Assembly: GCF_024171995.1 (NCBI RefSeq)
Contig: NZ_JAMTCT010000007.1
Location: forward strand, 124,001-188,000
Reading direction: 5' to 3'
Source of the DNA: Promicromonospora umidemergens
GTDB lineage: Bacteria; Actinomycetota; Actinomycetes; Actinomycetales; Cellulomonadaceae
Length of the DNA: 64,000 nucleotides
In this document: positions 4,646-21,771 of the stretch, one piece after another
How positions within the stretch are numbered: the stretch's first letter is position 1
Layout: each line of letters begins with the position of its first letter
The notes under the pieces: model-generated
Database searches by the model: none
Seen by the model: the letters and a program-made list of their open reading frames with translations, nothing else
What the model was told of the DNA's origin: nothing
Made by a program: the position numbers and the translations under genes

Positions 4646-5506
4646 ATGGCGAAGAAGCTCGAGAAGCTGTGGCGGACCCCGGCCCACGAGGCTCTGCGCT
4701 GGGAGCACGGCACCGACCTCGACGCCCTCGACGAGTCCGCGACGCCCGGCTGGGCCGGTAAGCGGCGCGACGGCGAGGAGCTGATGACCTCCCGCGCCCC
4801 GGAGCTCGCCGACCTCCAGGAGCGCCTCTTCGCGCACGGCCGCACCGGCGGCGACCGGTCGGTGCTGCTGGTGCTGCAGGGCCTCGACACAGCGGGCAAG
4901 GGCGGGATCGTGCGGCACGTCGTCGGCATGGTGGACCCGCAGGGCGTGCAGCACACGGGCTTCGGCGTGCCGACGCAGGAGGAGAAGGAGCACGGCTACC
5001 TCTGGCGGATCCGCAACGCGCTCCCCCGCCCCGGCTACCTCGGTGTCTTCGACCGGTCGCACCACGAACAGGTCCTGGTCGTGCGGGTGAACCGGCTCGA
5101 GCCGCAGAAGACCTGGCGCAAGCACTACCGCGAGCTGAACGAGTTCGAGGCCGAGGTGGCGGCGTCGGGCACCCTGATCGTGAAGGTGGCGCTCTTCGTG
5201 TCGGCCCAGGAGCAGAAGGAGCGCCTGGCCGAGCGGCTCGAGCGGCCCGACAAGCACTGGAAGTACGACCCGGGCGACATCGACGTCCGCTCGAAGCTCC
5301 CGCAGTACATCGCGGCATACCAGGAGCTGCTGGACCGCACCTCCACCGACGTGGCGCCCTGGTACGTCGTGCCGGCGAACCGGAAGTGGTACGCGCGCCT
5401 GGCGGTCACCGAGCTGCTGACCGGCGCCCTGCGGTCGCTGGACCTCGGCTGGCCGCCCGCCGACTTCGACGTCGAGACCGAGAAGGCCCGCCTCGCGGCC
5501 AGCTGA
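4646..5506 (+). CDS. ppk2: Polyphosphate kinase 2 family protein (PPK2)
   Basis: PPK2 enzymes transfer phosphate between polyphosphate and nucleotides, usually toward nucleotide phosphorylation. Supporting features are a Walker A variant GLDTAGKGG (79-87), a Walker B segment with FDRSHHEQV (135-143), and a lid-like basic stretch. The length of 286 aa fits single-domain PPK2. The start is clear: AAGGAGG at 4634-4640 precedes the ATG. The substrate class (AMP, ADP or both) cannot be assigned from sequence alone. It lies 58 bp after the TreZ-like gene on the same strand, placing polyphosphate and glycogen functions together. Confidence 0.9.
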   Translation: MAKKLEKLWRTPAHEALRWEHGTDLDALDESATPGWAGKRRDGEELMTSRAPELADLQERLFAHGRTGGDRSVLLVLQGLDTAGKGGIVRHVVGMVDPQGVQHTGFGVPTQEEKEHGYLWRIRNALPRPGYLGVFDRSHHEQVLVVRVNRLEPQKTWRKHYRELNEFEAEVAASGTLIVKVALFVSAQEQKERLAERLERPDKHWKYDPGDIDVRSKLPQYIAAYQELLDRTSTDVAPWYVVPANRKWYARLAVTELLTGALRSLDLGWPPADFDVETEKARLAAS

Positions 5507-5565
5507 CCTGTAGTTCACCCGCTCCGGGTCACAACCTTCCCCGTCCCTCGCCCGTCTTACCTGGC

Positions 5566-6825
5566 ATGAGGAACCACGCAGCGGTACACCCGGTCATCCT
5601 CGGTGGCGACGCCGGCGCCTACAGCCTCGCTCGCGCCTTCCACGAGCGCTACGGCGTCAGGTCGACGGTCGTGTCCATCCGTCCGACGCCCAACATCGCA
5701 CACTCCACCATCATCCGGAACGTCGTGGAACCGCGCCTCGACGACCCGGCCGTCATGGTCGAGCTGATCCGCCGGGTCGCCGCGGCGGCTCCGGGTCCGG
5801 TCATCGCGCTGACCTGCGTGGACTGGTACGTGCGGGCCCTCGCGGCGCACCGCGAGCTCCTGGCGGACGTGGCGGTCGTCCCCTACGCGCCGGTGGGCCT
5901 GCTCGATCGCGTGATGGACAAGCGGCGGTTCTCCGAGCTGTGCCACGAGATCGGGGTCCCGCACCCGCGCACGGAGGTGCGCGACGGCGGGGAGCCGGTC
6001 GGCGACCTCGACCTGCGCTTCCCCGTGATCGCCAAGCCGGGTGACAACACGGCGTGGCACCGGGTGTCGTTCCGCGGCAAGGCGAAGGTGCACCTGGTGC
6101 AGGACCGCGCCGAGCTGGCCGCGCTCCTGGACGCGGCCGGCGACGCGGGCTACCGGAGGCCGATGATCGTTCAGGAGTACGTGCCCGGCGACGACTCGCA
6201 GATGCGGATCATGACCACCTACTCGGATCGCGCGGGCACGGTGCGCATGGCGTGGGGCGGTCGCGTGCTGCTCGAGGAGCACACGCCCGGGACGCTGGGC
6301 AACCCGGCGGCGATCCTCACGGGGCGGCTCGGGCAGGTCGAGGCGGACGCCCGCCGGCTCGTGGAGCACCTGGGCTGGACCGGGTTCGCGAACTTCGACG
6401 TGAAGGTGGACCCGCGGACCGGCGTCGGACACTTCCTGGAGCTGAACCCGCGCACGGGACGGTCGAACTACTACCTGACGGCGAGCGGGCTGAACCCCGC
6501 CGCCTTCTGGATGGCGGACCACCTCACCGGGCGCTGGCCGCTCATGGAGCCGCTGGAGGTGCTGTACCGGATAGTCCCGAGCTTCCTCCTGGACAGGTAC
6601 GTGCACGACGAGTCGGTACGCGCCGCCGTGCGCCGCGCCCGCGTCGTGCACCCGCTGAAGTACGGCCGGGACCTGTCGCCGCGCCGCGACGCCTGGGTGC
6701 GTCTCGCCGAGCTGAACCAGGTGCGCAAGTTCGCGCAGCACCATCCGCTGCAGGAACAGGGCGGGGTGACCGGGCGGTCCGGCGCCGTGGAGCCCCTCCC
6801 GTCCGGGGAGCGTGACGTTGCCTGA
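5566..6825 (+). CDS. ATP-grasp carboxylate-amine ligase, D-aspartate ligase type
   Basis: I place the start at ATG 5566 (MRNHAAVHPVILGGDAGAYS), giving 420 aa; the open frame upstream overlaps ppk2 and is not coding-like. The N-terminus VILGGDAGAYSLARAFHERYG matches Enterococcus faecium D-aspartate ligase (Asl), which activates beta-carboxyl D-Asp and adds it to the stem-peptide lysine. ATP-grasp motifs are VIAKPGDNTAWH (near 151), IVQEYVPGDD (near 200) and FLELNPRTGRSNYY (near 290). The stop overlaps the start of an Asp/Glu racemase, which would supply a D-amino acid. A paralogue lies at 10102-11406. Role in the peptidoglycan interpeptide bridge is a family-based inference; D-Glu is an alternative substrate. 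Confidence 0.8.
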   Translation: MRNHAAVHPVILGGDAGAYSLARAFHERYGVRSTVVSIRPTPNIAHSTIIRNVVEPRLDDPAVMVELIRRVAAAAPGPVIALTCVDWYVRALAAHRELLADVAVVPYAPVGLLDRVMDKRRFSELCHEIGVPHPRTEVRDGGEPVGDLDLRFPVIAKPGDNTAWHRVSFRGKAKVHLVQDRAELAALLDAAGDAGYRRPMIVQEYVPGDDSQMRIMTTYSDRAGTVRMAWGGRVLLEEHTPGTLGNPAAILTGRLGQVEADARRLVEHLGWTGFANFDVKVDPRTGVGHFLELNPRTGRSNYYLTASGLNPAAFWMADHLTGRWPLMEPLEVLYRIVPSFLLDRYVHDESVRAAVRRARVVHPLKYGRDLSPRRDAWVRLAELNQVRKFAQHHPLQEQGGVTGRSGAVEPLPSGERDVA

Positions 6826-7627
6826 CGCCGGCGCGCCGGGCGCCAGGACCGGAGCCGGAGCCGGAGCCGGGGCCGGGGCCGGGGGCACGCTCGTCGGCGT
6901 GCTGGGCGGGGTCGGGCCGCTCGCGACGGTCCTGTTCATGGAGCGCGTCGCCCGGCTGACCGATGCGGCACGGGACCAGGACCACGTCGACATGATGGTG
7001 CTGCAGCACGCGACGGTCCCGGACCGGACAGCGTTCCTGCTGGGGCGTTCCACCGACGATCCAGGGCCGGTGCTCGCTGCCGACGCGCGGCGGCTCGCCC
7101 GGGCCGGGGTCGGCTTCCTCGTGCTGCCGTGCAACACGGCACACGCGTTCGCCGGCGCGATCGCCGCGGCGACGTCGGTCCCGCTGCTGTCCGCGGTGGA
7201 CGTGACGGTGTCCGCGGTGCTGTCTGACGACACCTGGACGGGTCGCCTCAGCGGGTCACGGCCGGAGGCGGTCGGCCTCCTCGCGACGGAGGGGACCGTC
7301 GAGTCGGGCGTCTACCTCGACGCCTTCGCCGCACACGGCATCAAGACCCTGGTGCCCGACGTCGCCGGTCAGGCGGCCGTGACGTCCCTGGTCTACGACG
7401 GCGTGAAGGCGGGGCGTGGCGGTGACCTGACCACGCTGGAGGGCGTCGTCGGCGACCTGCGCCTCCGTGGGGCGGGCGCGATCGTGCTGGGGTGCACCGA
7501 GCTGTCGGTCGCGGCGGAGGCGACCCCTGGGGACCTCCTGCCCGGCGTCGTGCTCGTGGACGCCCTCGACGAGCTGGCCCGGGCGACGGTGCTGCGCGCG
7601 GGACGCAGGCTCCGCGCGGACGGATAG
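6812..7627 (+). CDS. Aspartate/glutamate racemase family protein
   Basis: Cofactor-independent Asp/Glu racemases use two cysteines, and both are present: PCNTAH (Cys107) and LGCTELS (Cys228). The opening GVLGGVGPLATVLFM is the RacD-type signature rather than MurI-type. The gene overlaps the preceding ATP-grasp ligase by 14 bp from GTG 6812. TTG 6818 is a plausible alternative, being better spaced from GGGGAG at 6805-6810. The N-terminus holds a (Gly-Ala)n run encoded by a hexanucleotide repeat. Coupled translation with a D-Asp-type ligase suggests it makes D-Asp (or D-Glu) for the peptidoglycan bridge. It ends 12 bp before the convergent zapE. Confidence 0.88.
   Translation: MTLPDAGAPGARTGAGAGAGAGAGGTLVGVLGGVGPLATVLFMERVARLTDAARDQDHVDMMVLQHATVPDRTAFLLGRSTDDPGPVLAADARRLARAGVGFLVLPCNTAHAFAGAIAAATSVPLLSAVDVTVSAVLSDDTWTGRLSGSRPEAVGLLATEGTVESGVYLDAFAAHGIKTLVPDVAGQAAVTSLVYDGVKAGRGGDLTTLEGVVGDLRLRGAGAIVLGCTELSVAAEATPGDLLPGVVLVDALDELARATVLRAGRRLRADG
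6851..6886 (+). repeat. Hexanucleotide tandem repeat (GGAGCC/GGGGCC)
   Basis: Six consecutive 6-bp units (three GGAGCC, two GGGGCC, one GGGGGC) encode the Gly-Ala run near residues 14-25 of the racemase. Unit length is a multiple of three, so copy-number change would keep the frame. Confidence 0.85.
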
Positions 7628-7639
7628 GTGGTCGAGCCG

Positions 7640-8698
7640 TCAGACGAGCTTGCGGCCCTCCTCGGCCAGGGCGCCCAGGCGGGACAGTGCCCGGTAGTAC
7701 TTCTTGCGGTACCCGCCGGCGAGCATCTCCTCGGTGAACAGGCCACGCGTGTCCCCCGACCCGCCGAGCAGCACCGGCACGTCCCGGTCGTACAGGCGGT
7801 CCACGAGCACGACGAGGCGCAGCGCGACCTCCTGCGCCGTCACGGCGTGCACCCCCGTCAGCGCGACGACGGAGACGCCGTCGAGCAGCGCGCCGTACCG
7901 GCTGGGGTGCACGGTGGCGAGGTGGGCGAGCAGGTCGTCGAACCCGTCGAGGGTGGCACCGGGGCGAGCCGCCGCGGCGGCGACGTCGCCGTCGGTCAGC
8001 GGCTCGGAGTCCGTGACGACGTCCCGGTGGCGGTAGTCCTCGCCGTCGACCCGCAGGGTCTCGAAGCGGTCGGACAGGGCCTTGATCTCGCGCTGGAAGT
8101 CCTGGGCGGCGAAGCGGCCCTCACCGAGCGCGTCGGGCAGCGTGTTCGACGTCGCGGCGAGCGCGACGCCCCGGTCCGCGAGCTCGCGCATGAGGCGGGA
8201 CATGATGGTGGTGTCACCCGCGTCGTCGAGCTCGAACTCGTCGATGCAGACCAGCTTCTTGGCGGCGAGCGCCTCGACGGTCGGGAGGAACCCGAGCGCC
8301 CCGACGAGGTTGGTGTACTCGACGAACGTGCCGTACGCGGCGCTGCTCGTTCCGTGGACCGGGCCGAGCGCCTCACCGACGGCGTGGGCGAGCGAGGTGA
8401 GCAGGTGCGTCTTGCCGACGCCGAAGCCGCCGTCCAGGTACACGGCGGGTGCGGGCTTGCGGCGGGCGAACAGGCCGCGCCGGGGGGCGGCGATCTCCTG
8501 GGCGATCTCCGTCAGGCGGGCGAGCGCGCGGCCCTGGCTGGGATGTGCCGGGTTGGCGCGGTAGGTGGCGAACCGGGCGTTCGCGAAGTGGCGCGGCGGC
8601 ACGAGATCGGTGACGAGCCGGTCGACAGGGACCCGCGGTCGGACGGCGCACAGGGCGGTCGTCGCGGTCTGGCTGTCGGTGGTGGTAGCGGTCGTCAC
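7640..8698 (-). CDS. zapE: ZapE/AFG1-family ATPase
   Basis: This is an AAA-type ATPase of the ZapE/AFG1 family; ZapE of E. coli acts at the division ring. Walker A is GGFGVGKTH (90-98) and Walker B is CIDEFEL (151-157), both in family-typical form. The C-terminus ends in the usual Tyr/Arg-rich segment (FTEEMLAGGYRKKYYRALSR). Length (352 aa) is normal. The first 15 residues are Thr-rich and variable. A precise role in actinobacterial division is not established from sequence. Confidence 0.92.
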   Translation of the reverse strand: MTTATTTDSQTATTALCAVRPRVPVDRLVTDLVPPRHFANARFATYRANPAHPSQGRALARLTEIAQEIAAPRRGLFARRKPAPAVYLDGGFGVGKTHLLTSLAHAVGEALGPVHGTSSAAYGTFVEYTNLVGALGFLPTVEALAAKKLVCIDEFELDDAGDTTIMSRLMRELADRGVALAATSNTLPDALGEGRFAAQDFQREIKALSDRFETLRVDGEDYRHRDVVTDSEPLTDGDVAAAAARPGATLDGFDDLLAHLATVHPSRYGALLDGVSVVALTGVHAVTAQEVALRLVVLVDRLYDRDVPVLLGGSGDTRGLFTEEMLAGGYRKKYYRALSRLGALAEEGRKLV

Positions 8699-8751
8699 GT
8701 AGCAAGAGATTACCGGCGGGGCCGCTCACCGGGGGTGCCGGGAGAGCAAGG

Positions 8752-9426
8752 TCACACGTGCCGGACGGCCGGTGCAGCGGGGTCGTCCAGGAGCTCGCAG
8801 AGGGCGTTGACCACCTGCGCGGGGGTCCGGACCTGGGCGGGGTCCTCGTTGCGGCCGTCGCCGGAGACGGCGTGGTCGACGACGAGCTCGTGGAAGCGGA
8901 CGGCCGGCCCGGAACCCGGCGGCCGATCCTGCCCTGACTCCAGGCGCAGCACCTGGACCAGCATGGCCAGCCCGGCGCCCGTGACGCTGATCGCGCCCGA
9001 CCCGGCCATCGCCTCGCGGGACGCCGCGCCGTTGAGCACGACGTACGGGTCGCCGGGTCCCAGCAGCGGCGCGAGCGCGCGCGCGGCGTCGAGGTGGGCG
9101 GTGAGGTGCGAGGCCAGCGTCGCGGACCAGCGGTCCGGGTCCGACTCCAGCAGCGGGGCGCCCTTGTCCCAGCCGCCGATCGAGGCGACGACTGCCCCGG
9201 GCAGCGGTACTCCTGCGTGGGCACAGGCGGCGCGGACGGCGTCCGGCAGGGCGGCCGTCTCGGGGCTGTGGACGGGAACCACCCCTGCCTGGACCGTGAC
9301 CCGGTCGGGCAGCTCATGACGCGTGGAGGCGAGCACGAGCCGGCCGCCGGCAGCCAGGCCGCGTGCGACCCGGCTGCCGACGAACCCGCTCGCCCCGACG
9401 ACGAGGACGGGCCGGAGGCTGTTCAT
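8752..9426 (-). CDS. NAD(P)-binding Rossmann-fold protein (SDR-like)
   Basis: Short-chain dehydrogenase-like protein of 224 aa. The dinucleotide-binding loop GASGFVGSR lies at residues 11-19. The usual catalytic Tyr-x3-Lys is not evident: the expected region reads VVLNGAASREAMAGSG, so it may be an atypical or non-catalytic member. It sits 53 bp upstream of zapE on the same strand and may share its transcript. Substrate unknown. Confidence 0.7.
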   Translation of the reverse strand: MNSLRPVLVVGASGFVGSRVARGLAAGGRLVLASTRHELPDRVTVQAGVVPVHSPETAALPDAVRAACAHAGVPLPGAVVASIGGWDKGAPLLESDPDRWSATLASHLTAHLDAARALAPLLGPGDPYVVLNGAASREAMAGSGAISVTGAGLAMLVQVLRLESGQDRPPGSGPAVRFHELVVDHAVSGDGRNEDPAQVRTPAQVVNALCELLDDPAAPAVRHV

Positions 9427-9440
9427 CAGCTCAGGCTAGG

Positions 9441-9902
9441 TCAGACCGCCTGCGGCTGCGCCACGGCCTTGGGGTCAGGGCCGTGCTGGTTGGGGCCGGG
9501 TGTGCCGTTGGAGGCAGTGAAGACGATCAGGATGATCTGACCGACGAAGAGGACCAGGCCGATCAGGACCCAGAAGCCGGACTTGCCGGTGTCGTGCAGG
9601 CGGCGCACCGTGACGCCGAGGGTCGGCAGCAGGAGCGCGAGGCCGACGATCGACAGGATGATGTAACCGGTCGTCAGGGAGCCGGGCATAGCCGGCATCG
9701 GCGCTGCGGCGTCGCCTGCCATCAGGTACTCCGAGGTGGCCGCGGAGTACTCGGCCAGGCCGGGGGCCACCAGCGCCACGTAGAGAACCGTGTAGACGAT
9801 CCCGTACGCCAGCACGTACCACCAGTACTCGGAGCGGCGGGCGCGCCCGTTGAAGACCGCGTACTTGGACAGCACGGTCTTGATCGACTCGATGAACGAC
9901 AT
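9441..9902 (-). CDS. DUF805 family membrane protein
   Basis: 153 aa from ATG 9902; GAGAGG lies about 10 nt upstream. The DUF805 hallmarks are GRARRSEYWW (19-28) and RRLHDTGKSGFW (100-111). Three hydrophobic segments (about 25-47, 78-97, 110-130) predict an inner-membrane protein. Function of the family is unknown. The longer open frame upstream is not family-like. It ends 14 bp before the SDR-like gene on the same strand. Confidence 0.88.
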   Translation of the reverse strand: MSFIESIKTVLSKYAVFNGRARRSEYWWYVLAYGIVYTVLYVALVAPGLAEYSAATSEYLMAGDAAAPMPAMPGSLTTGYIILSIVGLALLLPTLGVTVRRLHDTGKSGFWVLIGLVLFVGQIILIVFTASNGTPGPNQHGPDPKAVAQPQAV

Positions 9903-10034
9903 CGGGGAAGAACCTCTCTCACGTGTTGTGCTGGGAATCTCCAGCAAGTGCTCACACAGTGTCCCGGTGACTCGAAGGGTGCACAAGGGCTGGAGCGGGC
10001 AGAACTACCCATCGCCGAAAGGCCCCTGACATGC

Positions 10035-10070
10035 CGGACGCCCAGGTCACCTGAGTGACCTGGGCGTCCG
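10035..10070 (-). terminator. Perfect 16-bp hairpin, likely terminator of the gnd/ATP-grasp operon
   Basis: Arms at 10035-10050 and 10055-10070 are exact reverse complements around a CTGA loop. The hairpin lies 32 bp past the stop of the minus-strand ATP-grasp gene. No clear U-tract follows, which is common for hairpin terminators in high-GC actinobacteria. Confidence 0.7.
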
Positions 10071-10101
10071 ACACGTCCGGGTGGTGCCGGACCAGAGCCG
10101 A

Positions 10102-11406
10102 TCAGTAGCCGGTGGCCGTGGGCTCCGGGTAGTACTGGGCGTACTTGCGGCGGTAGTTCTGCGTGATCGCCTCGACGATGAGCCGGCGCCTGAGGCCGGA
10201 GTCGCGGTCGTACTTCAGCGGGTTGATCACGTCGCCGCTGGCCTTGAGGGCCTTGAGCCGGGTCTTGAGCTCTGGGTCCACGACGTACTTGGACAGCAGG
10301 CCGAACGGCACCACCGTGTAGAGCACGTCGCGGACGGCCCGCACCGGGCGGATCGGCCGGTGCAGCACCCAGTCCTCCACCAGCACGCGGGCCACGTTGG
10401 CCCCGCCCGCCGTGACGTAGTAGTTGTTCCGCCCGATCCGGGGGTTCACCTCGAAGTACACGTGCTGCCCCGTGCGCGGGTCCAGCTTGTAGTCGAAGTT
10501 CGCGAACCCCACGTAGCCGGTCGCGTCGAGGAACCGGGTGGCCGCCTCCATGGCGTCCTCGTACGCCTCCACCAGGATCGCGGCCGGGATGCCGAGCGTG
10601 CCGGGTGTGTGCTCCTCCAGGAGCACGCGGCCGGTGGCCAGGAGCGTCACCTCGCCCGTCGTGTCGCGGTAGGCGGTCAGGGACCGCATCTGCGTCTCGT
10701 CGCCCGGGATGAACTCCTGCACCAGGAACGTGCCGGGGAACTGCGCGTCGGCGAGGTTGCCCAGCACCTCGTCGAGCTCCGCGCGGGAGTCGAGGTGGTG
10801 GATCTTCGCCTTGCCGGGGAAGTCCACGTAGTACCACTCGGCGCTGTTGGAGGGCTTGCCGACCACGGGGTACTGCAGGTCCACCTCGAGGGCGGGCACG
10901 GCGGCCCGTCCGCCGTCGGCCACCAGCTTGGCGATGTCGACCGCCACCGTGCGCGGCGTCGGGATGCCGAGCTGGTCGCACACCTTCGCGAAGCCCTCCT
11001 TGCTGCTGACCTGCTCCAGCACCGGCAGCGACGGGTACGGCAGCACGTAGCCCGCCGCCTCCAGCCGCTCCCGGTTCAGGATCACGGTGCGCACGTGCCA
11101 GTCCGCGTTGGTCAGCAGGATCAGGACCTTGTCCCGGTGCTGCTGCGCGATGCCCTCGAGCGTCGAGAGGAACACGTCGACCTCGTCGAGGCCGGGCACG
11201 ACGAGGTTCTCGGCGATCGCCGAGTCCTGCATCGCACGGGTGGCGACCTTCGACAGCACCACGGAGCGGGTGCCGTACTGCTCGTGGAACGCGCGCACCA
11301 GGGCGTACATCCCGACGTCGCCGCCGATGCCCACCACCATCAGGTCCGGGACGGGAGTCTCCCCGCCGCCACCCGCCGTCCCCATGTCCGCGGGGATACC
11401 CCTCAC
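10102..11406 (-). CDS. ATP-grasp ligase, second paralogue of the D-aspartate ligase type
   Basis: Homologous over its length to the ligase at 5566. The N-terminus reads LMVVGIGGDVGMYALVRAFH, and later motifs include VVGKPSNSAEWYYVDF, FLVQEFIPGDETQMRS and YFEVNPRIGRNNYY. The GTG start overlaps the stop of gnd (GTGA, 11403-11406), so translation is probably coupled. A Met eight codons in (MGTAGGGGETPVP) is an alternative start. The two paralogues differ in the residues around the ATP lid and may activate different D-amino or other carboxylates. Involvement in cell-wall bridge synthesis is inferred from family and from the nearby racemase and FemX. Confidence 0.78.
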   Translation of the reverse strand: MRGIPADMGTAGGGGETPVPDLMVVGIGGDVGMYALVRAFHEQYGTRSVVLSKVATRAMQDSAIAENLVVPGLDEVDVFLSTLEGIAQQHRDKVLILLTNADWHVRTVILNRERLEAAGYVLPYPSLPVLEQVSSKEGFAKVCDQLGIPTPRTVAVDIAKLVADGGRAAVPALEVDLQYPVVGKPSNSAEWYYVDFPGKAKIHHLDSRAELDEVLGNLADAQFPGTFLVQEFIPGDETQMRSLTAYRDTTGEVTLLATGRVLLEEHTPGTLGIPAAILVEAYEDAMEAATRFLDATGYVGFANFDYKLDPRTGQHVYFEVNPRIGRNNYYVTAGGANVARVLVEDWVLHRPIRPVRAVRDVLYTVVPFGLLSKYVVDPELKTRLKALKASGDVINPLKYDRDSGLRRRLIVEAITQNYRRKYAQYYPEPTATGY

Positions 11407-12851
11407 GCCTCAGCCTCCGTGCGGTCTCCCGACCACTCGGTGTGGAACGTGCCCTCGCGGTCGACGCGCTTGTAGGTGTGCGCACCGAAGAAGTCACGCT
11501 GCGCCTGCACCAGGGCGGCGGGAAGCCGCTCGGCGCGGACGCCGTCGTAGTACGACAGCGACGACGAGAACGCCGGCGCGGGCACGCCGTTCTGGGCGGC
11601 GCCGGCCACGATCCGGCGCCACGCGGGCAGGCCGCTCGCGACGGCGTCGGTGAAGTACGGGTCGGCGAGCAGGAGGGGAAGATCCTGGTCGCGCTCGTAC
11701 GCCTCGGTGATCCGGTTCAGGAACCGGGCGCGGATGATGCAGCCGCCACGCCAGATGCGGGCCATGGCGCCGCGGTCGATCGCCCAGTCGTACTCCGCCG
11801 CGGCCGCCGCGATCTGGTCGAAGCCCTGCGAGTAGGCGACGACCTTCGATGCGTACAGGGCCAGGCGGACGTCCTCGATGAATGCGGCACGGGAGGCGTC
11901 GTCCTTCGAGACCTCCCACTCCTGCGCGTGCGCGGGCAGCGCCGCGCGGCCCGCCGTGCGCTGCGGCACCGAGCCGGACAGCGAGCGGGCGAACGTGGCC
12001 TCCGCGATCCCCGTGATGGGCACGCCCACGTCCAGGCCGTTCTGTACGGTCCAGCGGCCGGTGCCCTTCTGCTCGGCCTGGTCCAGCACGATGTCGACGA
12101 ACGCCTTGCCGGTCTCCGCGTCCACGTGCTGCAGCACGTCGGCGGTGATCTCGATCAGGAACGACTCCAGGTCGCCCGTGTTCCACTGCGCGAAGATCTC
12201 GCCGATCTCCGCGGCTGTCGCACCGAGCCCCTGGCGCAGCAGGTCGTACGCCTCGGCGATGAGCTGCATGTCGGCGTACTCGATGCCGTTGTGCACCATC
12301 TTGACGAAGTGCCCGGCGCCGTCGGAGCCCACGTACGTGCAGCACGGGACGCCGTCCACCTTCGCGGAGATGTCCTCGAGGATGGGGCCGAGCGACTTGT
12401 ACGACTCGGGCGTGCCGCCCGGCATGATGGACGGGCCGTTCAGCGCGCCCTCCTCGCCGCCGGAGACACCGGTGCCCACGAAGTGCAGGCCGTGCTCCTT
12501 GAGTGCGGCCTCACGCCGGATCGTGTCCGGGAAGTGGGCGTTGCCCGCGTCGACCACGATGTCGCCCTCCTCCAGGAGGGGGATCAGCTCGTCGATGACG
12601 GCGTCCGTCGGACCGCCGGCCTTGACCATGACGACCACCTTGCGCGGCCGCTCGAGCGACGCGACGAAGTCCGCCATGGACTTGGCCGGGATGAACTCAC
12701 CGTCGCTGCCGTGCTCGGTGACGAGCGACTCGGTCTTCGCGTACGAACGGTTGTGGACCGCCACCGTGTAGCCGTGACGTGCGAAGTTCCGCGCGAGGTT
12801 GCGCCCCATCACCGCCAGCCCGGTGACGCCGATCTGTGCTGTGCCTGACAC
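11403..12851 (-). CDS. gnd: 6-phosphogluconate dehydrogenase, NADP-dependent, decarboxylating
   Basis: Oxidises 6-phosphogluconate to ribulose-5-phosphate and CO2 in the pentose phosphate pathway. The Rossmann loop GLAVMG (11-16), Asn-Arg-Ser (34-36, NADP preference), SGGEEGA (130-136) and catalytic KMVHNGIEY (Lys184, Asn188, Glu191) are present. So is the long-form C-terminus HTYKRVDREGTFHTEW that reaches into the partner subunit. The 482-aa length is the long homodimeric type. GTG 12851 has AAGGAGC upstream. It is co-transcribed with the downstream ATP-grasp gene. Confidence 0.97.
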   Translation of the reverse strand: MSGTAQIGVTGLAVMGRNLARNFARHGYTVAVHNRSYAKTESLVTEHGSDGEFIPAKSMADFVASLERPRKVVVMVKAGGPTDAVIDELIPLLEEGDIVVDAGNAHFPDTIRREAALKEHGLHFVGTGVSGGEEGALNGPSIMPGGTPESYKSLGPILEDISAKVDGVPCCTYVGSDGAGHFVKMVHNGIEYADMQLIAEAYDLLRQGLGATAAEIGEIFAQWNTGDLESFLIEITADVLQHVDAETGKAFVDIVLDQAEQKGTGRWTVQNGLDVGVPITGIAEATFARSLSGSVPQRTAGRAALPAHAQEWEVSKDDASRAAFIEDVRLALYASKVVAYSQGFDQIAAAAAEYDWAIDRGAMARIWRGGCIIRARFLNRITEAYERDQDLPLLLADPYFTDAVASGLPAWRRIVAGAAQNGVPAPAFSSSLSYYDGVRAERLPAALVQAQRDFFGAHTYKRVDREGTFHTEWSGDRTEAEA

Positions 12852-13011
12852 GTTCTTGCTCCTTCTGACGTGGGAACCGGTCGGCGTACGCGCAGGGCGC
12901 GCCGACCCCCGGCCAGCCTAGTAGGGCCCGAGAACGCAAGGCGACGCAGGTCACGATCTGGCGACGGCCGCGCGCCTCCGCCGGGCGGCAGCCACGCGGA
13001 CGTACCGTGAA
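12852..13011. promoter_or_regulatory. Divergent intergenic region gnd / DUF3000
   Basis: 160 bp between divergent starts, presumably carrying promoters in both directions. Apart from the gnd Shine-Dalgarno near 12860-12866 I see no clear operator or promoter pair. Confidence 0.3.
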
Positions 13012-13683
13012 GTGGTGACCAGCGGCCCGCCCACCGGCGTCCCCGTCGACTTCGCAGCAGCCCTCGCCGACCTGCGGCGTCAGGCCTTGCGCGCCGAGGT
13101 GCGCCTGACGGAGATCCCGGCCCCGCGCCGCGTGGCTCCGTTCAGCGTGGCGCTCTCGGGCGACGTGCTGCCCGGCACTGCGCCGGGGCGAACCGACCGG
13201 GACGGCCCAGAAGACCACGACCACCTGGACGAGCCGCTCGCCACCGGCCGCTTCGTCGTCCTGCACGACCCGGCCGGCCAGGAGGCCTGGCACGGCACCT
13301 TCCGGGTCGTGACGCTGGTGCGCGCGACGCTCGAGCCCGAGATGGCTGCCGACCCGATGCTGGCCGACGTCGCCTGGTCCTGGGTGGGCGAGTGCCTCGA
13401 GAACGCCGGGCTCGTCCCCGGCACCGACACGGTGGCCGACGGCGGCACGGTCACCCGGGTCCTCTCCCAGAGCTACGGGGCGCTGCACGGCACGCCCGAC
13501 GCGGTGGACCTCGAGATCCGCGCGTCGTGGACGCCGCTCGACACCCGGCTCGGGACGCACCTGCGCGCGTGGGCGGCCCTGCTCACCCTGGCGGCGGGCG
13601 TGCCCCCGCTGCCCGAGGGCGTCGCGGCCCTCACCAGGCGGGTTACCGACCGTTCCAGGCAACGCCATACGGTAGGCCCATGA
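13012..13683 (+). CDS. DUF3000 family protein
   Basis: Actinobacterial family of unknown function that commonly precedes ribonuclease D. Recognisable stretches are GRFVVLHDPAGQEAWHGTFR, WSWVGECLENAGL and GTHLRAWAALLTLAAGVPPL. GTG 13012 and GTG 13015 are adjacent start options. The stop overlaps the rnd start as ATGA (13680-13683), so the two are translationally coupled. No membrane segments or catalytic motif are visible. Confidence 0.9.
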   Translation: MVTSGPPTGVPVDFAAALADLRRQALRAEVRLTEIPAPRRVAPFSVALSGDVLPGTAPGRTDRDGPEDHDHLDEPLATGRFVVLHDPAGQEAWHGTFRVVTLVRATLEPEMAADPMLADVAWSWVGECLENAGLVPGTDTVADGGTVTRVLSQSYGALHGTPDAVDLEIRASWTPLDTRLGTHLRAWAALLTLAAGVPPLPEGVAALTRRVTDRSRQRHTVGP

Positions 13684-14945
13684 CCACCACGGAGCGAGGA
13701 GTCCCTGCGGAGACATCGACGCCCGTGCCGGCCCCCGTCACCCCGCTGACCGAGCCCGCCGACGGGCTGCCCGACGTCGTGGCGACCGACGGTGCGTTCG
13801 CCCGCGTCGTCGAGGCGTTTGCCGCCGGCTCGGGGCCTGTCGCCGCCGACGCCGAGCGTGCCTCCGGGTACCGGTACGGCCAGGCGACGTACCTGGTCCA
13901 GGTGCGGCGCGCGGGTGCGGGCACGGCACTGATCGACCCGGTCGGCGTCCCGGACCTCTCGCCGCTGAGCGAGGCCGTCGGCGACGCCGAGTTCGTGCTG
14001 CACGCCGCCTCCCAGGATCTGCCGGGGTTCGCCGAGCACGGCCTGCGCCCCGCGCGCGTCTTCGACACCGAGCTGGCCGCCCGGCTGCTCGGCATGGAGC
14101 GGGTGGGCCTCGCCGCCGTCGTCGCCGAGGTGCTCGGCCTGGGCCTGGCGAAGGAGCACTCGGCCGTCGACTGGTCCACGCGTCCCCTGCCCGCGGACTG
14201 GCTGCGGTACGCCGCCCTCGACGTCGAGGTGCTCGTGGAGCTGCGCGACCGGCTCGCCGAACAGCTGGAGGCCGCGGGCAAGACCGAGTGGGCGGCGCAG
14301 GAGTTCGAGGCGGTGCGCACTGCCGCGCCTGCGCCGCCACGGGTCGACCCGTGGCGGCGCACGTCCGGCATGCACGTGCTGCGCAACCCGCGCCAGGTCG
14401 CCGCCGTCCGGGCGATGTGGGTCGCGCGCGACGCCAGCGCCCAGGCGCGGGACATCTCACCAGGCCGGGTCCTGCCGGACCGGGCGATCGTCGCGGCGGC
14501 CAAGGCCATGCCGAAGACCGCCGGCCAGCTCGTGGCCCTGCCGGAGTTCGCGGGCAAGGGCACCAAGCGCCGGGCCGCCTACTGGCAGAAGGCGATCGAC
14601 GACGCGCGTGCGCTGCCCGACGCCGACCTGCCCTCCGTGCGCGGCCCGCGCTCGGACGGGCCCCCGCCCCCACGCACCTGGGGCGACCGTGACGCGGTAG
14701 CGGCCCGCCGGCTGACGGCGGCGCGCGAGCTCGTGGCCACGCTGTCCGAGGAGCTGAGCGTTCCGGTGGAGAACCTCCTGCAGCCCGACGCGCTGCGCCG
14801 CCTGTGCTGGGCGCCGCCCACCCCGGCCGACGCCGCCGGGATCACCGAGTTCCTGCGCAGCCGCGGTGCCCGCGCGTGGCAGGTCAGCCTGCTCGTGGGC
14901 GGCCTGGAGCGGACGTTCGCCGACGCGGTGCCGGAACAGGTGTGA
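13680..14945 (+). CDS. rnd: Ribonuclease D (DEDDy 3'-5' exonuclease with HRDC domain)
   Basis: Processes the 3' ends of structured RNAs such as tRNA precursors. The DEDDy residues are visible: Asp57 and Glu59 in VAADAER, Asp113 in ASQDLPG, and Tyr177/Asp181 in RYAALDVEVL. An HRDC domain follows at about 220-300 (MHVLRNPRQVAAVRAMWVAR), with a second helical segment at the C-terminus. ATG 13680 gives 421 aa and overlaps the DUF3000 stop by 4 bp. The longer open frame upstream runs through DUF3000 and is not used. Confidence 0.95.
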   Translation: MTTTERGVPAETSTPVPAPVTPLTEPADGLPDVVATDGAFARVVEAFAAGSGPVAADAERASGYRYGQATYLVQVRRAGAGTALIDPVGVPDLSPLSEAVGDAEFVLHAASQDLPGFAEHGLRPARVFDTELAARLLGMERVGLAAVVAEVLGLGLAKEHSAVDWSTRPLPADWLRYAALDVEVLVELRDRLAEQLEAAGKTEWAAQEFEAVRTAAPAPPRVDPWRRTSGMHVLRNPRQVAAVRAMWVARDASAQARDISPGRVLPDRAIVAAAKAMPKTAGQLVALPEFAGKGTKRRAAYWQKAIDDARALPDADLPSVRGPRSDGPPPPRTWGDRDAVAARRLTAARELVATLSEELSVPVENLLQPDALRRLCWAPPTPADAAGITEFLRSRGARAWQVSLLVGGLERTFADAVPEQV

Positions 14946-14978
14946 GCGCGCGACGCCCACACCAGTAGAGTCGTCCCC

Positions 14979-16034
14979 ATGCCAGCCCTGTCGGAGCCCA
15001 TCACGCTCGCCGTCGACGTCGTCACCCAACCTTCGACCTGGGACCGCGAGGTCCTCGCTCTGGGCGGGCACCCGCTCCAGCTGTGGGGATGGGGCGAGGT
15101 CAAGGCTGCGGGCAACTGGCGCGCGCACCGGCTGCGGGTGACCGAGGACGGCACCACCGTCGGCCTCGCCCAGCTGCTCGTGCGGCCGCTGCCGGCCCAG
15201 TTCCGGGCGCTCTCGTACGTGCCGCGCGGCCCCGTCGTCGCGCACCACGACGGCGAGACGGCGCAGGCGGTCTTCGGCGTCGGCGACAGCGCCACCCGCA
15301 ACGCCGTGACGAACACCGTCGTCGAGTGGGCGCGCGAGAACGTGGGCGGCGTCGGCATCACCATCGAGCCGGACTGGCCCGCCGGCACCCAGCTGGACCT
15401 TGCCGGACGGCGGTACGCGCCGAACCAGATCCTGATCCCGAGCACGCTGATCCTTGACCTCACCAAGTCCGGGGTCGAGCTGCTGGCGGACATGCGCAAG
15501 TCCACGCGGTACGAGATCCGCAAGGGTGGCCGTTCGGGTCTCGACATCCGCCGGGTGACGGAGGAGAAGGAGGTGCTGCGCGTGCTCGACGTCTACAAGG
15601 AGACCGCCCAGCGCGCCGGCTTCGCCATCCACTCCGACGAGTACTACCTCGACATCCACCGCTCGCTCGGCGAGCAGTCGGTGCTCGTCGCCACCTACGT
15701 CGACGACGTGCCCGCGTGCTTCGCGTGGTGCGTCAACTCGGCCAGCACCTCGTTCCTCCTGTACGGCGGCGGCAACGACGCCGGCCGCAAGGCCACGGCC
15801 ACCGCGCCCACCTACTGGCGCACCATCGAGATCGCGCAGGAGCAGGGCCTCGTGCGGTACGACATGAACGGCCTGCTCAACGACGGCATCAGCGACTTCA
15901 AGAAGAGCTTCGCCAAGCACACCGACGAGCTGGTCGGTTCGATCGACGTCCCGTTCTCGCGCTGGTACAACACCTGGAACACCGCTCTGCCGACCGCCAA
16001 GCGCGTGGTCCGCAAGCTCCGCGGCAACGGCTGA
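14979..16034 (+). CDS. FemX/FemAB-type aminoacyltransferase
   Basis: FemABX enzymes transfer amino acids from aminoacyl-tRNA to the stem-peptide of lipid II, building the L-amino-acid part of the cell-wall bridge. This 351-aa protein has the twin GNAT-like halves, MRKSTRYEIRKGGRSGL (the basic loop of FemX proteins), and the C-terminal RYDMNGLLNDGISDFKKSFA that matches the family's conserved glycine/lysine segment. There is no inserted coiled-coil, as in the FemX/Weissella type. In a genome region with an Asp/Glu racemase and D-Asp-type ligases, it could add an L-residue (Ser, Thr or Ala) ahead of the D-acidic residue (inference). The Shine-Dalgarno is weak. Confidence 0.85.
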   Translation: MPALSEPITLAVDVVTQPSTWDREVLALGGHPLQLWGWGEVKAAGNWRAHRLRVTEDGTTVGLAQLLVRPLPAQFRALSYVPRGPVVAHHDGETAQAVFGVGDSATRNAVTNTVVEWARENVGGVGITIEPDWPAGTQLDLAGRRYAPNQILIPSTLILDLTKSGVELLADMRKSTRYEIRKGGRSGLDIRRVTEEKEVLRVLDVYKETAQRAGFAIHSDEYYLDIHRSLGEQSVLVATYVDDVPACFAWCVNSASTSFLLYGGGNDAGRKATATAPTYWRTIEIAQEQGLVRYDMNGLLNDGISDFKKSFAKHTDELVGSIDVPFSRWYNTWNTALPTAKRVVRKLRGNG

Positions 16035-19920: not shown

Positions 19921-21720
19921 ATGACAGACGTCGGACCGGGAACGCACGCGCACTACGTGGTGGTCGGTGACGGTCCGCTCGCTTTTCGCCTGACCAGAGC
20001 GCTCAGCACGCGCTACAGGGGCACCGTGACAGTGGTCGTGCCGGACCGTTCCTCCCGGTACGCCCAGGAGATGGCGGACCTCGACCAGGTAGACCTCGTG
20101 GAGACCGACCGGGTCGACGAGAAGGCGCTGACCGCGGCCGGCGCGGACCGCGCTGTCGCCGCCGCGCTCGTGGACCAGGACGACGGCGGCAACGTCGCAC
20201 TGGCGCTCCTGCTCCGCGAGGCCTGGCCACAGCTGCACGTAGTGGTCCGGATCTTCGACGAGTCGCTCGGGCGGCACCTGCAGCGCGACCGCTGCACGGT
20301 GCTCTCGGCGTCGGCGTTCGCGGCGCCCGAGATCGTCGGCGCCGCGCTGCGCCGCCTGGTCCGCCTCCCGGTGCAGCACCGCCGCCTCGTCGCCATGCCG
20401 GACGCGGAGATGTCCTTGCCCAACCGTATGGTCCTGTTCGCGACCGACGAGGACGGCACCGTCACGGCGCTCCCGAGCGACGAGGAGCTGGCCGGGCTCG
20501 CTCCAAAGGTGCTCCTGGCGGACGTCGCCGAGCACGACGTCCTGCCCGAGATCACGGCGGACCTGGAACCGGACGAGGACGAGGTGGACCCGCACCGGCG
20601 TCGCCGGTTCGGCGAGTACCTGCGTACCCTGGCGATCACCTCGGGCTGGAACCTGCTGCTCGCTGCCGGGGTCCTCCTCGTGGTCGTGCTCATCGGCGCG
20701 GTGACCATGCAGCTCGCGACGGGCTCGTCCTTCTTCGGCGCGCTGTACGAGGCGGTGCTGCCCTCCCTGGCGGGCAGCGACCCCGACCACGACGCGAACC
20801 CCGTCGTCAAGGTCACCCAGGTGGTCCTGACCGTCGTGAGCGTCGCCGTCATCCCGTGGGTCACGGGTGTGGTGGTCGACGGCGTCGTGCGGACCCAGCG
20901 CCTGCTCGACGCGGGCTCCCCGCTGCACGCGATGTCCGACCATGTGGTCGTCGTCGGCCTCGGCGACCTCGGCACGCGCATCGTCCGGTCCCTGGACCGC
21001 CGTGGGGTGCCCGTGGTCGCCGTCGACATCGACGAGTCGGCACGCGGGATCGCGGTGGCGCGGGCCAGGGACGTCCCCGTCGTGATCGGCGACGCCCGCC
21101 GGGCGGCGACCCTGCGCGCCGCTTACGTCGATACCGCCCAGGCGGTAGTGGTGGTCACGAGCGGCGGCGCGACGACCATCGGCATCGGCTTCGCCGCCCA
21201 CTCCATCCCGCGGCCCGAGGACGCCCCGACGCCGCTGCGCACCGTCCTGCGCGTGTACGACAAGGACCTGACGCGCCGCATCCGCCGCGAGATCCCCGAC
21301 TCGGTGGGACTCAGCTCCTCGTTCCTCGCCGCGCCGTGGTTCGCGGCCTCGATGATCGGCCAGGAGGTCAAGGCGACCATCCCGTACCGGGACCGGGTGC
21401 TGGTGCTCGCCGAGCTCGAGGTCGGGACGAACAGTCGCCTCGTCGGCAAGCACTCCGACTCCGTCAATCTCCATGCTGCCGGCGCCGAGAGCGCGGCCGC
21501 CACAGAGCACGACACCACGAAGAAGGAGATCAGGAGCCGGCTGCTGGCTGTCCACACGCTCACGTTCGAGAGCGGAGGTGGTGGCCACCTGATCGAGCCG
21601 ACGGCGGGCCGCTATCTGCAGCCAGGGGACCGGGTGTTCGTCATCGCGACCACGGCCGGGCTGCATCACCTGCGCGAGGAGGCGCGTGAGCGGCCGGGAC
21701 CCGACCCGGCACCGGACTGA
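19921..21720 (+). CDS. Two-RCK, two-TM channel-like protein without a canonical K+ filter
   Basis: Order: a TrkA-N/RCK Rossmann domain (YVVVGDGPLAFRL, 12-24), two membrane segments (about 241-265 and 296-320), then a second RCK domain (VVVVGLGDLGTRI, 342-354) with a C-terminal RCK-C-like region. Between the membrane segments, SSFFGALYEAVLPSLAGSDP is positioned like a pore helix, but TVGYG is replaced by LAGSDPDHD. By architecture it would be a ligand-gated ion channel or sensor. Ion specificity cannot be predicted. The APC permease starts 51 bp downstream on the same strand. Confidence 0.75.
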   Translation: MTDVGPGTHAHYVVVGDGPLAFRLTRALSTRYRGTVTVVVPDRSSRYAQEMADLDQVDLVETDRVDEKALTAAGADRAVAAALVDQDDGGNVALALLLREAWPQLHVVVRIFDESLGRHLQRDRCTVLSASAFAAPEIVGAALRRLVRLPVQHRRLVAMPDAEMSLPNRMVLFATDEDGTVTALPSDEELAGLAPKVLLADVAEHDVLPEITADLEPDEDEVDPHRRRRFGEYLRTLAITSGWNLLLAAGVLLVVVLIGAVTMQLATGSSFFGALYEAVLPSLAGSDPDHDANPVVKVTQVVLTVVSVAVIPWVTGVVVDGVVRTQRLLDAGSPLHAMSDHVVVVGLGDLGTRIVRSLDRRGVPVVAVDIDESARGIAVARARDVPVVIGDARRAATLRAAYVDTAQAVVVVTSGGATTIGIGFAAHSIPRPEDAPTPLRTVLRVYDKDLTRRIRREIPDSVGLSSSFLAAPWFAASMIGQEVKATIPYRDRVLVLAELEVGTNSRLVGKHSDSVNLHAAGAESAAATEHDTTKKEIRSRLLAVHTLTFESGGGGHLIEPTAGRYLQPGDRVFVIATTAGLHHLREEARERPGPDPAPD

Positions 21721-21771
21721 ACGACCGGCCGGGAACCGGCCCGTTCGCCGGTCCACCGCGCGCATAGCGTC

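Follow-up and report, generated by a model that had tools for sequence, protein, structure and literature searches.

A relocating ligase–racemase cassette beside housekeeping bridge genes in Promicromonospora umidemergens: two predicted routes to the D-residue of the peptidoglycan bridge

Why should one genome hold two related ATP-grasp ligases close to a racemase gene and a FemX-type gene? In the 64,000-nucleotide (nt) stretch of Promicromonospora umidemergens DNA analysed here (positions 124,001 to 188,000 of contig NZ_JAMTCT010000007.1, hereafter the window, from a genome of 6.6 Mb in 65 contigs), these genes are LIG1 (5566-6825, plus strand; 419 aa), a predicted D-aspartate ligase; RAC (6812-7627, plus strand), a predicted aspartate racemase of the Asp/Glu racemase family that overlaps LIG1 by 14 nt; LIG2 (10102-11406, minus strand; 434 aa), a predicted D-glutamate bridge ligase; and FemX (14979-16034, plus strand; 351 aa), an aminoacyltransferase that would supply the bridge with its L-residue. 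The original prediction, made from the sequence of the window, had named these four genes with their coordinates, and all of them are present. It had also read them as one candidate cell-wall bridge locus, and the idea of a single co-inherited locus has to be given up: LIG1 and RAC form a cassette inserted between a PPK2 gene and a ZapE gene, and the other 10 genus genomes with LIG1 carry it elsewhere, while LIG2 and FemX are fixed housekeeping genes and a separate system. A bridge to which FemX contributes an L-residue and an ATP-grasp ligase a D-residue stays the best reading, only not as the work of four genes in a single system. We favour, with modest confidence, a constitutive Lys-L-X-D-Glu wall combined with a mobile, stress-inducible D-Asp alternative.

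The two systems differ in their distribution. LIG2 overlaps by 4 nt its operon partner gnd, which encodes 6-phosphogluconate dehydrogenase (11403..12851, minus strand; PF00393, 414.7 bits). LIG2, always adjoining gnd, and FemX are each present in all 13 Promicromonospora genomes examined. In most of the loci of the ligase family that we fetched, the slot between gnd and zapE, which gnd marks, houses the bridge ligase or ligases, and the site after the ribonuclease D-like gene rnd houses FemX or nothing. The FemX proteins of 11 relatives are 91-97% identical to that of the window, and the one of genome G001 (L057 14985-16058) is 70% identical; the latter is possibly a replaced FemX, perhaps adding another L-residue. 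LIG1-RAC was found in 11 of the 13 genomes (it is absent from G007 and G011), outside the gnd-zapE slot in every one of them, and it lies close to LIG2 and FemX in this strain alone. Among 41 window genes, LIG2 has the codon use second closest to the window pool; foreign codon use of LIG1 was not seen, LIG1 being mid-range and RAC low. A whole-genome search returned two ligases of the LIG1/LIG2 family, with no third at E 0.01, and a single FemAB gene, which is FemX.

The cassette (5566-7627, about 2.1 kb) has further copies in Antribacter and Myceligenerans. We compared 14 copies, 11 from the genus plus those of Antribacter soli, Antribacter gilvus and Myceligenerans pegani, which gives 91 pairs (the module length of G009 was assumed). 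They occupy 12 neighbourhoods and, for the genus, the flank gene clusters agree. Homology upstream of LIG1 has a median length of 54 nt and stops within 107 nt in 89 of the 91 pairs; the two pairs in which it runs further, assigned by other shared flank matches, are G003-G012 and G009-G010. Downstream of the RAC stop codon, homology extends over at most 113 nt wherever it was scored. The cassette therefore has defined borders and relocates. A scan of 20 flanking genes, which did not extend to the flanks of G003, revealed no transposase or recombinase, and no pair of repeats around the insertion was conspicuous. A second copy in Antribacter soli was counted once with the first: its stretch does not differ from the other across 16,049 nt and is probably an assembly duplicate.

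In the window, the cassette sits between two converging genes, PPK2 on the left (4646..5506, plus strand; PF03976, 210.8 bits) and a ZapE/AFG1-like ATPase gene on the right (7640..8698, minus strand; PF03969, 212.8 bits). These two genes adjoin each other in the genus genomes measured: in 10 relatives, the gap between them is 3-78 nt long and holds no cassette. This gap was read in 10 of the 12 other genus genomes (G007 gave no PPK2 match and G009 no ZapE match). For the G012 cassette position, the flank is too poorly conserved in this genome to allow a clean comparison with an empty site. By eye, long palindromes were seen in the PPK2-ZapE gap of several relatives (L060 6293-6370, L064 6775-6850, L068 6007-6080; also L067); they comprise at least two unrelated sequences and lie at the spot where this strain has the cassette. 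One palindrome core that was tested occurs a single time among 215 loci, and not in the window.

We then compared the history of the cassette with that of its hosts. On a tree of three neighbouring genes (thiolase is missing in 1 of the 17 rows), Promicromonospora forms one clade with 100/100 support. The LIG1-RAC tree places Antribacter soli and M. pegani inside Promicromonospora, and the approximately unbiased (AU) test rejects a LIG1-RAC clade restricted to Promicromonospora (p 0.0195). This rejection and this placement together provide moderate evidence that LIG1-RAC passed between genera.

The two ligases also belong to different branches of their family. We built a tree of 163 ligases, i.e. 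the two of the window and 161 different proteins from stretches L037-L190, identical proteins being counted once; it includes 80 named loci, the best 80 of at least 569 relatives in one genome scan. A racemase was scored as present when its gene lay within 600 nt, and 5 rows near contig ends were left unscored; one row (L148_12121) was recoded from present to absent, because its racemase belongs to an opposite-strand neighbour. In the clade of LIG1 (clade I, 77 rows), a racemase accompanies 71 of the 74 scored ligases (3 unscored). In the other clade, which contains LIG2 (clade II, 86 rows), it accompanies none of 84 (2 unscored). Racemase presence changes only 4 times on this tree, vs. about 52 times with shuffled labels. 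Seven alignment positions separate the clades almost fully; for example, position 300 is a serine in 73 of the 77 clade I ligases and an asparagine in 85 of the 86 others. This split fits the suggestion of the original prediction that two ligases could mean two different bridge residues.

A second tree, with 81 of the 163 rows and four ligases from plasmid-collection records (three lactobacillal, one from Subdoligranulum), placed all four in clade I with 100/99 support. In Latilactobacillus curvatus, an amino acid racemase gene lies directly upstream of the ligase, the sole annotated racemase neighbour of the four; the ligase of Lactobacillus crispatus adjoins an asparagine synthase gene, the stretch of Limosilactobacillus fermentum holds no racemase, and that of Subdoligranulum carries no annotation. 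These lactobacillal Asl-type ligases served for the comparison with Asl, Aslfm and AslA themselves being outside the tree. The N-termini of both ligases of the window had been said to resemble the D-aspartate ligase of Enterococcus faecium (Aslfm). LIG1 groups with the lactobacillal Asl-type ligases and has an overlapping racemase partner; LIG2 lies outside the Asl clade, in a sister group, with no racemase partner. With the lactobacillal Asl-type ligases LIG1 shares the clade, C84, S300 and a basic residue at position 227, and it has a racemase partner as in the racD-aslA operon of Lactococcus and lactobacilli; in Lactococcus lactis, aslA and racD lie in one operon and the bridge is reported as Lys-D-Asp (PMC4155827). 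There, however, the ligase builds the bridge of the ordinary wall, whereas LIG1-RAC comes in addition, as a cassette that relocates and has a stress-type promoter, in a genome that also holds FemX and a clade II ligase.

Other arrangements of these genes were observed. The loci of Isoptericola/Xylanimonas type present a run of a clade II ligase, a clade I ligase and a racemase (L085, L103, L104, L109, L114-L119, L174, L178, L184, L189), in most of which the ligases overlap; no FemX was seen at these three-gene loci. Three Brachybacterium loci and one other (L139, L156, L160, L048) carry tandem clade II ligases with no racemase, as expected for a bridge with two D-Glu residues, and another Brachybacterium locus (L148) has one ligase of each clade. 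Uncultured Clostridia, several of them from animal guts according to their titles, carry clade I ligase-racemase pairs (L125, L136, L137, L143, L147, L151, L157, L162, L164, L165, L168, L169, L170), which suggests D-Asp bridges.

LIG1 and LIG2 share 42% identity over 406 aligned columns. LIG1 has no Pfam match at E 0.001, LIG2 has a single one, to a general ATP-binding family (24 bits, cut-off 19.8), and both show weak NCBIfam matches, far under the cut-off, to carbamoyl-phosphate-synthase-like families. The structure model of LIG1 is an ATP-grasp carboxylate-amine ligase fold (predicted local distance difference test score, pLDDT, 89.9) with E-x-N-P-R intact. Its best fold matches are L-amino acid ligases, and PylC comes at rank 13; the ligation by PylC takes place on the lysine side-chain amine and closely parallels the reaction that we propose for LIG1 and LIG2. 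RAC matches PF01177 (123.7 bits, cut-off 31) and carries two cysteine motifs, PCNTAH and GCTE; its best solved relative is the Asp racemase 1jfl (E 1.8e-40), and it also exceeds the NCBIfam cut-off for cysteate racemase (209.8 vs. 190). FemX matches PF02388 (101 bits, cut-off 24) and reaches 37.3 bits against the NCBIfam FemX alanyltransferase equivalog, below the cut-off of 500.

Upstream of LIG1, we identified a predicted promoter of the sigma-E-like extracytoplasmic function (ECF) type, CACAAC-N17-CGTCTT (5530..5558, plus strand), and before it a conserved box, TTCACCC (5514..5520, plus strand; 12 to 14 of the 14 copies identical per position). CAAC-N17-CGT occurs in all 14 cassette copies, at a constant distance from the start codon: the CAAC and CGT letters are identical in 14 of 14, and the spacer letters in 9.6 of 14 on average. 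As the start codon follows the -10 hexamer by 7 nt, the LIG1-RAC transcript is probably leaderless. At -10, 6 of the 14 copies read CGTG and not CGTC; the copy of this strain agrees with the definition of -35 AAC, a 17-nt spacer and -10 CGTC. The promoter shares its elements and spacing with the sigma-E regulon of Streptomyces coelicolor, as far as the excerpt of that study goes (PMC6767563). We scored it with a matrix derived from 30 sigma-E targets in the same excerpt, a list not restricted to experimentally mapped promoters. With 15.85, the LIG1 site comes slightly below the upper quartile (16.0) of the training set. It ranks first among 41 gene starts of the window (80 nt upstream, from our own gene calling) and is the single best of about 128,000 window positions. 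The other cassette copies score 7.2 to 15.9; for G009, the top score went to a different site that overlaps. Outside the cassette copies, both strands of the roughly 2.9 Mb of DNA fetched hold four occurrences of CAAC(C or G)TT-N14-CGT(C or G), a pattern that the M. pegani copy misses by one letter. The motif is absent from the seven slot-located clade I ligases checked (Oerskovia, Cellulosimicrobium, Luteimicrobium, Isoptericola, Cellulomonas).

From these features, we infer that an ECF sigma factor of the envelope-stress kind controls LIG1-RAC. The text of the S. coelicolor study does not contain FemX, FemAB, aminoacyltransferase or cross-bridge (PMC6767563), and no D-amino-acid bridge ligase is listed among the sigma-E targets in the excerpt (PMC6767563). 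In G006, G009 and G010, LIG1-RAC has divergently oriented ECF sigma genes at its side or close by (in G010, one gene away; L042 6726-7301, L044 7277-10222, L045 9352-11496). They encode differing sigma factors with no shared motif found, and are suggestive only.

Can the two clades be tied to different residues? Seven strains combine visible ligase genes with a reported wall, and the assignment of clade I to D-Asp and of clade II to D-Glu fits five of them; here and below, the wall types come from excerpts of the published descriptions. C. bogoriensis 69B4 (clade I and racemase) has an Orn-D-Asp wall (PMC8878594), and X. cellulosilytica (clade I and racemase, with a clade II ligase as well) a Lys-D-Asp wall (PMC3035249). 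The walls of S. keddieii (PMC3035225) and J. denitrificans (PMC3035236), both with FemX and a clade II ligase, are of the Lys-Ser-D-Glu type, and that of A. subterranea (clade II, no racemase) contains D-Glu. Comparing ligase clade with peptidoglycan type, as had been proposed, thus gave agreement in five of seven strains and disagreement in two (C. carbonis T26 and B. equifaecis JHP9). Outside this count, Orn-D-Glu is described for two other species of Pengzhenrongella, and P. frigida has a clade II ligase (PMC11165906). C. flavigena, Beutenbergia cavernae (Lys-L-Glu), two Brachybacterium species and the other tabulated Actinotalea were left out, as their ligase genes were not seen, and the Oerskovia description gave no wall type. 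The stem peptide already calls for D-Glu in every cell; a D-Glu ligase can do without a further racemase, and a racemase-free clade is what one expects for it. Most likely, then, LIG2 adds D-Glu and LIG1 adds D-Asp. Our literature search, with most subscription journals outside its reach, gave no description of a D-Glu bridge ligase.

For Promicromonospora itself, the original prediction had put forward Lys-Thr-D-Asp or Lys-D-Asp. Neither is expected as the main wall type, because LIG2 falls in the racemase-free sister clade, and Sanguibacter and Jonesia, which pair FemX with a ligase lacking a racemase partner, have Lys-Ser-D-Glu walls. By tree and neighbourhood, the genes of these two genera are the counterparts of LIG2 and FemX; they have one ligase of the family per genome and no racemase in the fetched locus, whereas this genome has two ligases and RAC. 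The description of the family to which Promicromonospora belongs gives an A4-alpha peptidoglycan with L-lysine (PMC6113628). For one described Promicromonospora, the excerpt reports a wall with Ala, Glu and Lys only. Such a wall fits FemX and LIG2 and shows no visible D-Asp, so that LIG1-RAC would be off in standard growth, minor, or used elsewhere. We take the Promicromonospora wall to be Lys-Ala-D-Glu, for which the literature search gave no confirmation.

Several observations weigh against a stress-inducible D-Asp cassette added to a D-Glu wall. Three clade I ligases have no racemase nearby. C. carbonis T26, with clade I and racemase, is tabulated with L-Orn-D-Glu (PMC8878594), and no clade II ligase was seen in its fetched locus. 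Brachybacterium equifaecis JHP9 has clade I, racemase and clade II, and the excerpt reports only diaminopimelic acid, Ala and Glu by thin-layer analysis (PMC10581053). X. cellulosilytica has a clade I ligase overlapping a clade II ligase, yet its bridge is reported with D-Asp only: the number of ligase genes does not simply equal the number of residues, and either a ligase stays silent or a residue escaped the wall analyses. The AU test yields only a moderate p-value, and support is weak at most of the inner forks in the LIG1-RAC tree. Finally, the promoter match relies on a Streptomyces consensus and the six CGTG copies score lower; the core motif, searched across the whole genome, had 15 matches (vs. 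1 for the reversed pattern), at least 3 of them inside unrelated genes. One match precedes an ECF sigma gene equipped with a ribosome site of its own, and we did not count these matches as a regulon.

The case of C. carbonis T26 and the breadth of the racemase family would also fit an unlikely alternative, in which RAC and LIG1 both handle glutamate and provide a second D-Glu route rather than a D-Asp route. However, LIG1 shares its clade with ligases of two D-Asp strains, C. bogoriensis and X. cellulosilytica, and with those of Asl type from lactobacilli, and the solved structures that match RAC best bear the name Asp racemase.

Could both ligases be always on and act in sequence, leaving two D-residues per bridge (e.g. 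L-X, D-Asp, D-Glu)? A4-gamma walls with two D-residues are known in Brachybacterium, whose loci hold two tandem clade II ligases (L139, L156, L160) or one ligase per clade (L148). We nevertheless find this improbable, since a needed second step is incompatible with the lack of LIG1-RAC in 2 of the 13 genomes, one Promicromonospora wall is reported without Asp, and the closest slot-located relatives of LIG1 (Oerskovia, Cellulosimicrobium, Luteimicrobium) are the sole ligase in the slot in the loci fetched.

A role unrelated to peptidoglycan, such as acting on a peptide with D-Asp or D-cysteate, seems very unlikely. The cysteate racemase score of RAC and the unrelated genes that surround the cassette would agree with it, but relatives of LIG1 with 65-71% identity occupy the gnd-adjoining wall-ligase slot, with FemX nearby. 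That the cassette is a neutral relic being lost is hardly credible: it is absent from two genus genomes and the draft genome G009 matches only 91 of the 271 RAC residues, but the RAC frames are free of stops in the other 10 genus copies, the promoter boxes were kept while the spacer drifted, and the cassette appears to have passed between genera.

The favoured combination of a constitutive D-Glu wall and an inducible D-Asp alternative would work as follows. At rest, FemX would add one L-residue, probably Ala or Ser, to the lysine side chain of the wall precursor, and LIG2 would then add D-Glu, giving a Lys-L-X-D-Glu bridge. Under wall stress, the cassette would be transcribed from its own ECF sigma-E-like promoter; RAC would convert L-Asp to D-Asp, and LIG1 would activate D-Asp with ATP and join it to the acceptor made by FemX, competing with LIG2, so that D-Asp would replace part of the bridge D-Glu. 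This acceptor, rather than bare lysine, is proposed because the nearest relatives of LIG1 occur in FemX-bearing genera. The cassette has been inherited and relocated, and has probably also passed between related genera.

As a speculation, a bridge altered in this way might protect the wall from cutting enzymes made by rivals or phages; in the scan of 20 cassette-flanking genes, we recognised no wall-lytic enzyme. The immunity factors against lysostaphin and zoocin are mobile FemAB-type genes that alter the wall bridge with L-residues. LIG1-RAC would be a mobile bridge changer of the same sort, altering the D-residue by means of an ATP-grasp ligase. Only tentatively do we go as far as a "wall re-keying" cassette complete in itself, which would spread horizontally, relocate with no transposase of its own, be switched on by envelope stress and blunt wall-cutting enzymes by putting D-Asp for D-Glu, with clade II as the D-Glu bridge ligase.

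For decades, actinobacterial taxonomy has treated the bridge type as a fixed character. An inducible LIG1-RAC would make wall type a matter of growth conditions, and a strain's alternative bridge would go unnoticed in routine typing. Ligase clade, racemase and FemX together offer a sequence rule predicting the D-residue of the bridge, applicable to many species with known walls, and clade II is a candidate gene class for D-Glu bridges.

Two further genes served as synteny markers around the housekeeping pair: a DUF3000 gene (13012..13683, plus strand; PF11452) and rnd (13701..14945, plus strand; PF01612 and HRDC, with an inferred start). Further along the window, a predicted tRNA-Gly(CCC) (21681-21763, minus strand) overlaps the 3' end of a TrkA-domain gene (19921-21720, plus strand).

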